A stretch of DNA of 64,000 bases, taken from Flavobacterium sp. KACC 22761 (GTDB lineage: Bacteria; Bacteroidota; Bacteroidia; Flavobacteriales; Flavobacteriaceae). The notes below the pieces were generated by a model. It saw only the letters and a program-made list of their open reading frames with translations, made no database searches and was not told where the DNA came from. Numbering within the stretch: position 1 is the stretch's first letter; the number at the start of each line of letters is the position of its first letter. Positions 59,681 through 63,946 of this stretch are shown here, in pieces. A program made the translations under genes and the position numbers. The stretch covers positions 3,658,001-3,722,000 of the forward strand of contig NZ_CP139148.1 of the NCBI RefSeq assembly GCF_034058155.1, in the 5' to 3' direction.

Positions 59681-59712
59681 TTGACTAATTCGGTAGAATT
59701 AATATATATTTG
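59681..59712 (+). promoter_or_regulatory. Promoter of the SAM-riboswitch transcript
   Basis: TTG at 59681-59683, 21 bp, then TATATTTG at 59705-59712. It matches the Flavobacterium consensus and lies about 25 bp before the riboswitch. Confidence 0.75.
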
Positions 59713-59736
59713 TAATGCAGAATATTTCTGTAATGA

Positions 59737-59838
59737 TACTTATCCAGAAAGACTGAGGGAGAGGCCCAATGAAGTCTTAGCAACCTGTTGCCAAACAAGG
59801 TGCTAATTCCTTCCCGCTTGGCGGGACAGATAAGAAAG
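59737..59838 (+). ncRNA. SAM-I (S-box) riboswitch
   Basis: The conserved S-box core is readable: CTTATCCAGAAAGACTGAGG opens P1 and the internal loop, GGCCC(AATGAAGTCTTAGCAACC) continues P2/P3, AAGGTGCTAATTCC forms the pseudoknot and P4 region, and AGATAAG closes P1 with CTTATC. S-box RNAs bind S-adenosylmethionine and reduce expression of methionine and sulfur genes when it is plentiful. No strong terminator follows directly, so the control platform may be translational or may involve the short ORF at 59893. It fits the sulfur-related genes downstream. Confidence 0.92.
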
Positions 59839-61153: not shown

Positions 61154-62635
61154 ATGAATGCTATTGAGCCAACAACAAAACCAACAGAATCGGAGTGTTA
61201 CTTTTCTAAATTTAGAGAAAACACATTAGGAATTGAACATACTTTCGAATCGGTTTATGGAGAACAAAATTTGATTTATGCAGATTGGGTTGCCAGCGGA
61301 AGATTATACGTCCCGATTGAAGATATTATGCTCAATAAAGTTGGCCCAATGATTGCCAATACGCATTCGTTTTCTAGCCAAACCGGAAAAGCCTCGACTT
61401 ATGCATACCAGCAAGCTCGAGACATTATTAAAAAATCGGTTAATGCAAATCAGTCTGATGTTTTAGTGGCTACAGGAACCGGAATGACGGCAGCTTTGTC
61501 AAAATTGCAGCGCATTATTGGTTTGAGAAAAAATCATCACAAAGGAAATAATGACAAACCTGTAGTTTTTATTACGCACATGGAACATCATTCGAATCAG
61601 GTTTCTTGGTATGAAACCAATGCTGATGTCGTAATTTTGCCTCCAGATGAAAATAACTTAGTCGATCCCGCTATTCTTTCTTCAGAATTAAAAAAATATG
61701 CTAACAGAAGTGTAAAAATCGGTTCGTTTACGGCATGTTCGAATGTTACTGGAATTATTACGCCTTATCATGAATTAGCCAAAATCATGCATCAAAACGG
61801 TGGATTGTGCTTTGTAGATTTTGCCGCTTCGGCGCCTTACGTCAAAATCGATATGCATCCACAAGATCCAGAACAGCAATTAGATGCCATTTTCTTTTCG
61901 CCACATAAATTTTTGGGCGGACCGGGAACTTGCGGTGTTTTGGTTTTTAATGAAAAACTATATCAATCTGATTTTCCTGATAATCCAGGCGGAGGAAACG
62001 TAAAGTGGACAAATCCGTTGGGTAAATATTCATACAGCGATATAATTGAGGTAAGAGAAGATGGAGGAACTCCGGGATTTTTGCAAGTGATTCGAACTGC
62101 TTTGGCTTTGGAACTAAAAGAAAAAATGGGAGTTGAAAACATTGCAGAAAGGGAGAAAGAACTACTAGAGTTTTGTTTTTTTAAACTTCAAAAAATACAA
62201 GGATTGTCAATTTTGGGAGATTTAAAAAGCAAGCGAATAGGTTGTGTTTCATTTGTGATCGAAGATATTCACTATAATCTGATTGTAAGACTTTTAAATG
62301 ATCGTTTTGGAATTCAGGTTCGTGGCGGTTGGTCATGCGCGAGCACTTATGCGCACTATCTTTTTAATATCGACGAAAAGCGATCAAAGGCCATTACAAC
62401 TGAGTTGCTTCAGAAAAACCAGACGAATAAACCAGGCTGGGTTCGTTTGTCGCTTCATCCAATAATGACAAATGAAGAGCTTTCCTTTATTTGTAATGCA
62501 ATTCAGCAAGTGGCTTCAAATTATAAAAAATGGCAAAAAGATTATGAGTATAATCCTGTGACAAATGAGTTTGAAAATCCTAGAATTCAAGATACAATTG
62601 CAAGAGAAGTTAAGGAATGGTTTGATTTGGAATAG
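61154..62635 (+). CDS. Class V aminotransferase, cysteine-desulfurase-like
   Basis: 493 residues, longer than SufS (about 400). The PLP site is SPHKFLGGPGTCGV with Lys252, Asp222 (FVDFAAS) contacts the pyridine nitrogen, and THMEHHSNQVSW (141-152) lies over the cofactor. RGGWSCASTYAHYLF near 390-404 has Cys395 at the place of the catalytic Cys in SufS-type desulfurases. It may release sulfur from cysteine or act on a related amino acid. It follows the SAM riboswitch and precedes a methionine transporter, so a sulfur amino acid role is likely. Confidence 0.88.
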   Translation: MNAIEPTTKPTESECYFSKFRENTLGIEHTFESVYGEQNLIYADWVASGRLYVPIEDIMLNKVGPMIANTHSFSSQTGKASTYAYQQARDIIKKSVNANQSDVLVATGTGMTAALSKLQRIIGLRKNHHKGNNDKPVVFITHMEHHSNQVSWYETNADVVILPPDENNLVDPAILSSELKKYANRSVKIGSFTACSNVTGIITPYHELAKIMHQNGGLCFVDFAASAPYVKIDMHPQDPEQQLDAIFFSPHKFLGGPGTCGVLVFNEKLYQSDFPDNPGGGNVKWTNPLGKYSYSDIIEVREDGGTPGFLQVIRTALALELKEKMGVENIAEREKELLEFCFFKLQKIQGLSILGDLKSKRIGCVSFVIEDIHYNLIVRLLNDRFGIQVRGGWSCASTYAHYLFNIDEKRSKAITTELLQKNQTNKPGWVRLSLHPIMTNEELSFICNAIQQVASNYKKWQKDYEYNPVTNEFENPRIQDTIAREVKEWFDLE

Positions 62636-62700
62636 ATTTTTTGAAATGGATTAATAAAATAATCTATTATTTTGATAGGGTAATGAAAGTTTTTGTCGTT

Positions 62701-62735
62701 TTTGTACTGAAATTGAAAATAACTCTTTAAATTTG
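62701..62735 (+). promoter_or_regulatory. Promoter of the metN leader transcript
   Basis: TTTG at 62701-62704, a 23-bp spacer and TAAATTTG at 62728-62735. It puts the transcription start only a few bases before the ATG at 62744, so the leader ORF may be translated from a nearly leaderless mRNA. Confidence 0.6.
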
Positions 62736-62743
62736 CAACCACA

Positions 62744-62839
62744 ATGAGAAAAAACGACCAGAATATGAAGAATTATTACAACAGCAATATGATGTGCTGT
62801 AAAAGTGTAATGCAATTCATTGAGCTGGCTTCGATATAA
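62744..62839 (+). CDS. Putative Met/Cys attenuator leader peptide
   Basis: 31 residues, ATG at 62744 to TAA at 62837-62839. Residues 16-19 are Met-Met-Cys-Cys (ATG ATG TGC TGT) and there are five Met and two Cys in total, far above average. It lies directly before a strong terminator and the methionine-importer genes. In classical attenuation a ribosome that stalls at such codons when charged tRNA is scarce lets the antiterminator form. The sequence GGCTT (62827-62831) can pair with AAGCC (62862-62866), the left arm of the terminator, as a possible antiterminator. Confidence 0.65.
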   Translation: MRKNDQNMKNYYNSNMMCCKSVMQFIELASI

Positions 62840-62857
62840 AATGATATTATTTATTGC

Positions 62858-62899
62858 AAAAAAGCCTTTCATGAACAATTGAAAGGCTTTTTTGTTTTT
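62858..62899 (+). terminator. Attenuator terminator upstream of metN
   Basis: A perfect 13-bp stem (AAAAAAGCCTTTC / GAAAGGCTTTTTT), a 10-base loop and a T-rich tail. It lies 18 bp after the leader peptide stop and ends about 15 bp before the metN ATG, so transcription must read through it to reach the transporter. Confidence 0.88.
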
Positions 62900-62914
62900 A
62901 ACCCTAATTACGAA

Positions 62915-63946
62915 ATGATTGAATTAAAAAATGTAACCAAAACTTTTCACCAGAAAGATAGAGTTGTAACGGCTTTGTCTGATGTCTCGTTGAGAGTTCC
63001 GCCGGGGAAAATTTTTGGTGTTATTGGAACTTCGGGTGCGGGAAAAAGTACCTTGATCCGTTGTGTGAATTTGTTGGAAAGACCAACTTCGGGTGAAATT
63101 ATTGTGGATGGAAAGGCTTTGATGCAGTTATCAAATGCTGAATTGGCAATTGAAAGAAGAGAAATCGGAATGATTTTTCAGCATTTCAATTTATTGTCTT
63201 CTCGAACTGTTTTCGAAAATGTTGCATTTCCATTGGAATTGGCCGGAACTTCAAAAAGCGAAATCAAAACTCGCGTTTTAGAATTATTAGAATTGGTTGG
63301 TTTGGCAGAAAAAGCAAACGATTATCCAGCAAGTCTTTCGGGTGGGCAAAAACAAAGAGTTGCGATTGCGAGAACTTTGGCCAATAATCCAAAAGTATTA
63401 TTGTGTGATGAAGCAACAAGCGCTCTGGATCCTGCAACAACGCGTTCGATTTTGAATTTATTGAAAGACATCAACAAACGTTTGAATATTACCATTTTGC
63501 TGATTACGCATCAAATGGAAGTGGTAAAATCAATTTGTGATGAAGTTGCGGTCATTAGCCACGGAAAATTAATAGAACAAGGAAGTGTGGGAGAAATTTT
63601 TGCCGACCCAAAGCATGAATTGACCAAGGAATTCATTTCGTCTTCTCTGCATATTGAAGTTCCATCGGTTTATCAGGAAAAGTTGCAAAAAGAAGATAAC
63701 GGAAATCTGAATCCGTTATTGAAACTGGAAATGACAGGAAAATCGGTTAACGAGCCTGTAATTTCAGAAGTTTCAAGACTTTTTGATACTGATTTCAAGA
63801 TTGTTAGCGCACAAATGGATCAAGCAGGCGAGGTTAATTTTGGCGTTATGTTGATCGAACTTTCAGGAAAACGCGAAAATTATAACGCAGCGATTCAATA
63901 TTTTAATTCAAAACACATTAAAACAGAAATTATAGGTTATGTCTGA
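62915..63946 (+). CDS. metN: Methionine ABC importer ATP-binding protein
   Basis: 343 residues from the ATG at 62915 ([11 protein letters not shown]). An in-frame TTG at 62879 lies within the terminator hairpin and was rejected. Walker A is [12 protein letters not shown], the signature [14 protein letters not shown], and Walker [12 protein letters not shown]. After the ABC domain comes a C-terminal NIL/ACT-type domain (about 255-343), which in MetN binds methionine and inhibits transport. The permease gene overlaps its end by 8 bp. Confidence 0.95.

Follow-up and report, generated by a model that had tools for sequence, protein, structure and literature searches.

A conserved methionine-cysteine leader ORF upstream of metNIQ in Flavobacterium: very probably a ribosome-mediated attenuator

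In the window (the whole stretch of 64,000 nucleotides analysed here, part of a 5.04-Mb Flavobacterium genome), the gene metN is preceded by a short open reading frame (ORF) with a run of methionine and cysteine codons, and by a terminator hairpin. The question this raises is whether ribosomes translating the ORF decide if the genes behind it are transcribed. The results described below show that the metN leader is real and conserved, and indicate that it is very probably a functional ribosome-mediated attenuator. Downstream of metN, outside the window, lie metI- and metQ-like genes, so that the operon is metNIQ. The elements of the region are as follows.

59737-59836, same strand: SAM riboswitch (RF00162, 86.9 bits), ~2.9 kb upstream of the leader
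61154-62635: SufS-like class-V aminotransferase gene, below the NCBIfam SufS cut-off and above that of Pfam
62663-62680, no strand assigned: palindromic site TCTATTATTTTGATAGGG, predicted to be a probable regulator-binding site, ~80 nt before the leader ATG
62728-62735, plus: -7 box TAAATTTG of the leader promoter, identical in 38/38 leaders, 8 nt before the ATG
62744-62839, plus: leader ORF, 31 codons and stop, MRKNDQNMKNYYNSNMMCCKSVMQFIELASI, frame open in 38/38 leaders
62758-62762, plus: region 1, CCAGA, which may pair with region 2 when the RNA is not translated (weakly supported)
62789-62800, plus: putative control codons Met16-Met17-Cys18-Cys19, pN/pS 0.11 at these columns
62816-62831, plus: region 2, TTCATTGAGCTGGCTT, antiterminator strand with complementarity to the terminator 5′ arm
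62856-62871, plus: region 3, terminator 5′ arm (predicted fold)
62880-62899, plus: region 4, terminator 3′ arm (62880-62895) and U-rich tail (predicted fold)
62915-63946, plus: metN, first gene of metNIQ (TIGR02314, 549.6 bits against a cut-off of 499.7)

The leader unit and its conservation

A sequence-only reading of the locus had described a 31-codon ORF with Met-Met-Cys-Cys in its middle, placed right after a good promoter and followed by a perfect 13-bp terminator. The ORF is as described, with the run at codons 16-19. As to the promoter, the -7 box TAAATTTG holds, while inspection by eye revealed no convincing -33 element upstream of it. The terminator holds as well and its claimed length was close: the hairpin is predicted to hold 16 pairs, one of them G-U (62856-62871 with 62880-62895), the 14 inner ones forming an uninterrupted Watson-Crick stem; a U-rich tail comes next, and 20 nt separate the end of the stem from the metN ATG. 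The fold of positions 62740-62900 was stronger than that of 200/200 dinucleotide shuffles (z -5.4), mostly because of this hairpin. A riboswitch, a T-box or a Bacteroid-trp RNA at 62701-62915 was rejected as there is no Rfam match there; the sole gathering-level match in the window was the SAM riboswitch, with Bacteroid-trp (RF01692) below threshold. Judged by the amino-acid usage of the long ORFs in the window, MMCC would be expected by chance in such an ORF with a frequency of ~4e-7; its conservation in relatives is the stronger argument.

Conservation was surveyed in 249 genomes of the genus, counting metN at E <= 1e-130. A metN of this kind was present in 41 of them, and the upstream regions were read at all 41 loci (30 loci and 11 stretches). 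The named metN loci nearest to that of the window, those of F. pectinovorum, F. araucananum, F. hercynium and F. aquidurense, show 91-92% identity to it. Leaders were sought by promoter spacing, allowing 2-13 nt between the -7 box and the ATG and ignoring the peptide. Upstream of 37/41 metN loci there is a promoter-ORF-terminator unit: TAAATTTG, a spacer of 8 nt to the ATG, an open frame 22-32 codons long, and a hairpin and T-run; it is absent from the other four (L133-L136, whose MetN is 66-75% identical), which were counted as misses. Despite the range allowed, the spacing was 8 nt in all 37 loci. Promoters of F. johnsoniae were scored with 4-5 nt from the -7 box to the start site (PMC6847099), so a leader of only 3-4 nt would remain. 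The near-leaderless start proposed in the sequence-only reading is supported by this spacing.

An alignment of 38 rows was then built. Of the 37 leaders, 36 are distinct, L099 being the same as L098; to these were added L003 and L005, from two further named species, and L004 and L006 were left out as duplicates of L128 and L130. Conservation of the Met-Cys run had been set beforehand as a test, and the run passed it: at least one Cys is present in 38/38 leaders, CC in 33, MM in 29 and the exact MMCC in 25, while L129-L132 lack the core Met pair and keep Cys. No internal stop interrupts the leader frame in any of the 38 sequences, and each of the other frames contains one in all of them. Peptide length varies from 22 to 32 residues, and in several species the peptide ends after the core. 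The gene upstream of the leader also varies, as judged from 34 loci (30 of the 41 and four named ones): it is SufS-like in four, and in seven the closest frame on the upstream side is encoded by the other strand. That the terminator is part of the upstream gene was rejected since this gene differs among loci. When the profile of the Flavobacterium leader was compared with 346 genomes of the order, 11 matches arose, nine from within the genus and two from elsewhere in the order (E 0.011 and 0.016). By eye, no such leader was seen in the 400 nt before metN in Dyadobacter, two Pedobacter and one Apibacter record. The anatomy of the leader and its conservation within Flavobacterium are thereby established.

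RNA pairing and the position of the ribosome

An antiterminator formed by GGCTT near the ORF end and AAGCC in the terminator arm had been claimed. This was right in outline, GGCTT/AAGCC being the heart of a longer pairing (~62816-62831 with 62862-62875, -11.5 kcal/mol) in which the ORF end UGA..CUGGCUU pairs with the terminator 5′ arm. Duplex tests on single leaders gave moderate support: 7/200 shuffles were as good as the window leader, and 1-84/200 were as good as the other Flavobacterium leaders. Over the 38 Flavobacterium leaders, 96.7% of the antiterminator cells are paired, with no covariation (shuffles were equal), and 97.1% of the terminator cells, with one compensated pair, in three leaders.

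In leaders with a short ORF (L003, L117, L121-L124, L126 and L127) the element is kept, 3-7 nt past the stop codon; it therefore behaves as RNA. Measured from the end of the stop codon, the element starts at most 13 nt upstream and at most 7 nt downstream in 37/38 leaders, the exception being L125, in which the exact element word is missing. In the 33 leaders (of 38) that have CC, 24-32 nt separate the element from the first of the core Cys codons. Given the size of the ribosome footprint, these positions relative to the stop and Cys codons imply that the element would be covered by a terminating ribosome and free of one stalled at Cys. Both the complementarity and this geometry are established here.

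Predicted folds agree with this arrangement. With a ribosome placed at Cys, the arm pairs upstream with a mean probability of 0.99 (0.59 in shuffled sequences; 0-16/40 shuffles as high, depending on the leader), while with a ribosome at the stop codon the terminator has a probability of 1.00. With no ribosome, the mean of the 2:3 pairing goes down to 0.30, partly because of a CCAGA/UCUGG helix between region 1 and the ORF end, in which 93.2% of the cells are paired and covariation is weak (two pairs with one double change each; 10/500 shuffles). L097 has a changed terminator arm, and its predicted stalled-state pairing uses a different stretch. In the full-length RNA at equilibrium the terminator beats the antiterminator; the switch must therefore be kinetic, and the model needs co-transcriptional timing, as is the case in known attenuators.

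These elements correspond to those that define an attenuator: a short ORF with what appears to be a run of relevant control codons, an intrinsic terminator between the ORF and the first gene, an antiterminator that would exclude the terminator, and a region 2 predicted to be covered by a ribosome at the stop codon and left exposed by one stalled at the control codons. We consider it likely that the leader is a trp-type ribosome-mediated attenuator that gauges the charging of both tRNA-Cys and tRNA-Met, and we infer that the leader is translated, that ribosomes stall in it and that readthrough responds to this signal. As judged by promoter spacing, RNA polymerase would begin transcription 3-4 nt ahead of the leader AUG and ribosomes would load at this near-leaderless 5′ end. 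When charged tRNA-Cys and tRNA-Met are ample, the ribosome would reach the stop codon and cover region 2, allowing the terminator to form and transcription to stop before metN. If charging of either were low, the ribosome would stall at Met-Met-Cys-Cys and leave region 2 free to pair with the emerging terminator 5′ arm, which would pre-empt the terminator and allow transcription of metNIQ. In the absence of translation, region 2 would tend toward pairing within the ORF, and the terminator would win. Weighing against this reading are the lack of covariation in the Flavobacterium antiterminator, the moderate single-leader tests, the departure of L097, the mixed picture for Chryseobacterium-type leaders in the fold lacking a ribosome, the preference for the terminator at equilibrium, and the small in-frame excess of Cys given below.

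Other Met/Cys leaders and the sulfur context

A second type of metN leader, not alignable to that of Flavobacterium and following the same logic, was found in Chryseobacterium-type loci. Sixteen were analysed: four come from a set of 11 named Chryseobacterium metN loci, and the genus of the other 12 is inferred from their likeness to named records; the other seven named loci showed no leader in the scan, which required ORFs with CC. The 12 were drawn from 22 peptide matches, among which L207, L210, L212, L214 and L216 were read and are not leaders, and L213, L215 and L217-L219 were left out of the reading. The core is MMYCCMP in 12 leaders, MVYCCMP in two, and MMQCCMP and MMNCCMP in one each; the presence of CC in 16/16 is partly a selection effect, because the scan kept ORFs with CC and the query peptide held MMMYCCMP. 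The next gene is metN in 13/16 loci; in L198, L203 and L056 the first gene is instead that of a transporter placed before metN (the stretches of L056 and L198 were annotated in part). This transporter is presumably EamA-like. The position of the leader before it suggests a role for this transporter in sulfur amino-acid traffic.

At the ORF end of the Chryseobacterium-type leaders, GUGG..CCUU pairs with AAGG..CCAC, and in L200, L201 and L205, apparently a single clade, both strands have changed to GGAG..CUCC, a compensatory change. In this antiterminator 90.3% of the cells are paired, with two adjacent double-change pairs (six cells; 0/500 shuffles), and one flanking pair is unpaired in 9/16 leaders. 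The changed bases fall in the loop of the terminator, outside its stem. The predicted probability of the arm pairing is 0.83, against 0.48 in shuffled sequences, duplex tests gave 0-33/200 shuffles as good, and the terminator has a mean predicted probability of 0.98. The contrast with the fold lacking a ribosome was mixed (means of 0.74 and 0.40; equal or reversed in several leaders). The 5′ stretch after the -7 box is longer in these leaders and hence they have no leaderless start, so the near-leaderless trait holds for Flavobacterium and not for the Chryseobacterium type.

A third case came from a terminator match in the genome to which the window belongs (L193, G000:C1:4768000-4771500, minus strand). 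The gene downstream encodes a glutamate dehydrogenase (PF00208, PF02812), and ahead of it stand, in this order, a leader ORF (MKNYSLNIIPFICSLTMCCMSNHAMKWR), a terminator and a further ORF rich in Met and Cys. The first gdh leader is present in 25 of 27 Flavobacterium loci (the best 27 of 45 rows), with an MCCM core in 25/25 and 8 nt between the -7 box and the ATG. The terminator 5′ arm has its complement in the end of this ORF (GAAAUGGC or close to it), with duplex energies of -8.9 to -13.7 kcal/mol (7-47/200 shuffles as good). The second ORF (MR[ST]NRN..KIPCC) lies between terminator and gene and is itself rich in Met and Cys. No match to glutamate dehydrogenase was found at E <= 1e-80 in ten genomes with a Chryseobacterium-type leader.

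The loose pattern CTAY-N6..8-RTAG occurs ~80 nt before the leader in 36/37 leader-bearing metN loci. In the same genome as the window, its 15-nt form CTAY-N7-RTAG is also found before gdh (L193:2543-2557) and at sulfate-assimilation genes (L194:15509-15523), in the latter case at most 1.6 kb from a gene for an Rrf2-family regulator (L194:13963-14364). Chance occurrences of the loose pattern were seen elsewhere too in the 19.5 kb scanned, so what carries weight is solely that it recurs at fixed positions. The palindrome is a candidate sulfur operator near metNIQ, gdh and the sulfate-assimilation genes. A SAM riboswitch on the neighbouring transcript had also been proposed, correctly: it precedes a thioredoxin-fold gene and the SufS-like class-V aminotransferase gene, and belongs to the transcript upstream of the metN leader. 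Directly before its promoter region there is a palindrome-like site, GACTAATTCGGTAGAATTA (within 59683-59836 of the window), so the same regulator may act there. The sulfur region of this genome also contains a SAM-II riboswitch (L194:2079-2185, minus strand) and a second SAM riboswitch (L194:6618-6726, plus strand); RNA control of sulfur genes thus coexists in at least three kinds here. A simple scan of the stretches around sulfur genes in this genome (L194, L196 and others; TAnnTTTG, 6-10 nt, ATG) revealed no further Met/Cys leader.

Taken as a family, these leaders may represent a dual Met and Cys gauge of the Flavobacteriales with at least three unrelated origins (Flavobacterium metNIQ, Chryseobacterium metNIQ, in some cases behind a transporter gene, and Flavobacterium gdh), a shared sulfur operator, near-leaderless mRNAs in Flavobacterium, and gdh under sulfur-amino-acid control, a proposal for and against which we find the balance about even.

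The signal sensed and comparison with known systems

Selection on the leader ORF was estimated from codon changes. The pN/pS ratio was 0.11 at the four MMCC columns, where TGC and TGT are exchanged, and 0.69 for the whole ORF. Among the 14 ungapped 31-codon leaders the ratio for the leader frame was 0.78, and the two other frames gave 0.69 and 0.61, so selection on the entire peptide is not evident. The MMCC columns behave as expected of control codons, and only these codons look constrained. Cys is the most constant of the putative control residues, and Met the second.

These results bear on whether the same mechanism might respond to Cys charging alone or mainly, Met codons being incidental. 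This reading overlaps the one favoured here and agrees with the presence of Cys in every leader and the lack of the core Met pair in L129-L132. Met, however, accounts for 13.0% of non-start residues in frame and for 1.3% and 0.6% in the other frames, it adjoins CC in all three leader systems, and the product of the operon imports methionine; we regard Cys-only sensing as rather unlikely. The contrast is smaller for Cys, with 8.8% in frame and 6.2% and 5.9% in the other frames. The near invariance of the Chryseobacterium-type core MMxYCCMP, even at the DNA level, and the recurrence of N-terminal NQ and YY among Flavobacterium leaders would fit TnaC-type sensing, in which a small molecule binds and the nascent peptide arrests the ribosome, with no gauging of tRNA charging. 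Outside the core, however, pN/pS was 0.59 upstream and 1.00 downstream, not below the other frames, and the three systems have in common only that Met and Cys lie close together; we regard nascent-chain sensing as distinctly improbable. That the ORF, conserved and with a promoter of its own, encodes a small protein with its own function, the hairpin being an ordinary terminator of this or the upstream gene, is scarcely credible, and was rejected given the variable peptide end and a whole-ORF pN/pS not below that of the other frames, with differing upstream genes and an ORF-end element complementary to the terminator arm also arguing against it.

Attenuation by the charging of both tRNAs, the reading we favour, would bring the pair Cys and Met into the set of amino acids that terminator-based leader peptides apparently gauge, and the gdh leader points to an unexpected tie between sulfur amino acids and glutamate dehydrogenase. 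The metN leader offers a compact, conserved test case for whether coupling of transcription and translation is tight enough in Bacteroidota for ribosome-mediated attenuation, and also for the use of near-leaderless mRNAs in this phylum.

Bacteroid-trp, which we take to be a trp attenuator, and amino-acid operons of F. psychrophilum are attenuation candidates from the same phylum as the metN leader. The former (RF01692) is listed in PMC2864571; for the latter, leader-peptide attenuation was proposed in a passage that names no Cys or Met case (PMC9723704). Such leaders, which the sequence-only reading held to be little described in the phylum, are thus not unknown there. Short ORFs reminiscent of leader-peptide attenuation were described in B. 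thetaiotaomicron (PMC7366714), and most transcripts of F. johnsoniae are reported to be leadered (PMC6847099). According to a passage of a 2010 survey, leader peptides were known from Proteobacteria and Actinobacteria only, Firmicutes then being added (PMC2965389). No Met/Cys leader before metNIQ in Bacteroidota was found in the literature, in a search that had most subscription journals outside its reach.

The metL leader of Streptomyces lividans, a leaderless ORF with several Met and Cys codons, precedes the same operon, metNIQ, and an independent origin is assumed; its authors state that a typical Rho-independent terminator was not found (PMC8079986). Leaders of Actinobacterial cys operons contain Cys codons and are described as having no obvious terminators (PMC1262725), and leaderless polycysteine small ORFs are known in mycobacteria (Canestrari 2020, cited in PMC9094748). 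The likeness lies in short, partly leaderless Cys ORFs before sulfur genes, and the Flavobacterium leader, with what appears to be a near-leaderless Cys/Met ORF before such genes, shares this trait of the leaderless type. Unlike the Actinobacterial cys leaders, it has a terminator and an antiterminator.

With the classical trp, his and leu attenuators the metN leader shares an ORF with control codons, an intrinsic terminator, an antiterminator and an ORF end that lies beneath the terminating ribosome. It differs from them in that the control codons are those for Met and Cys, in that the ORF is near-leaderless, and in that it belongs to a phylum which, to our knowledge, lacks Shine-Dalgarno sequences.
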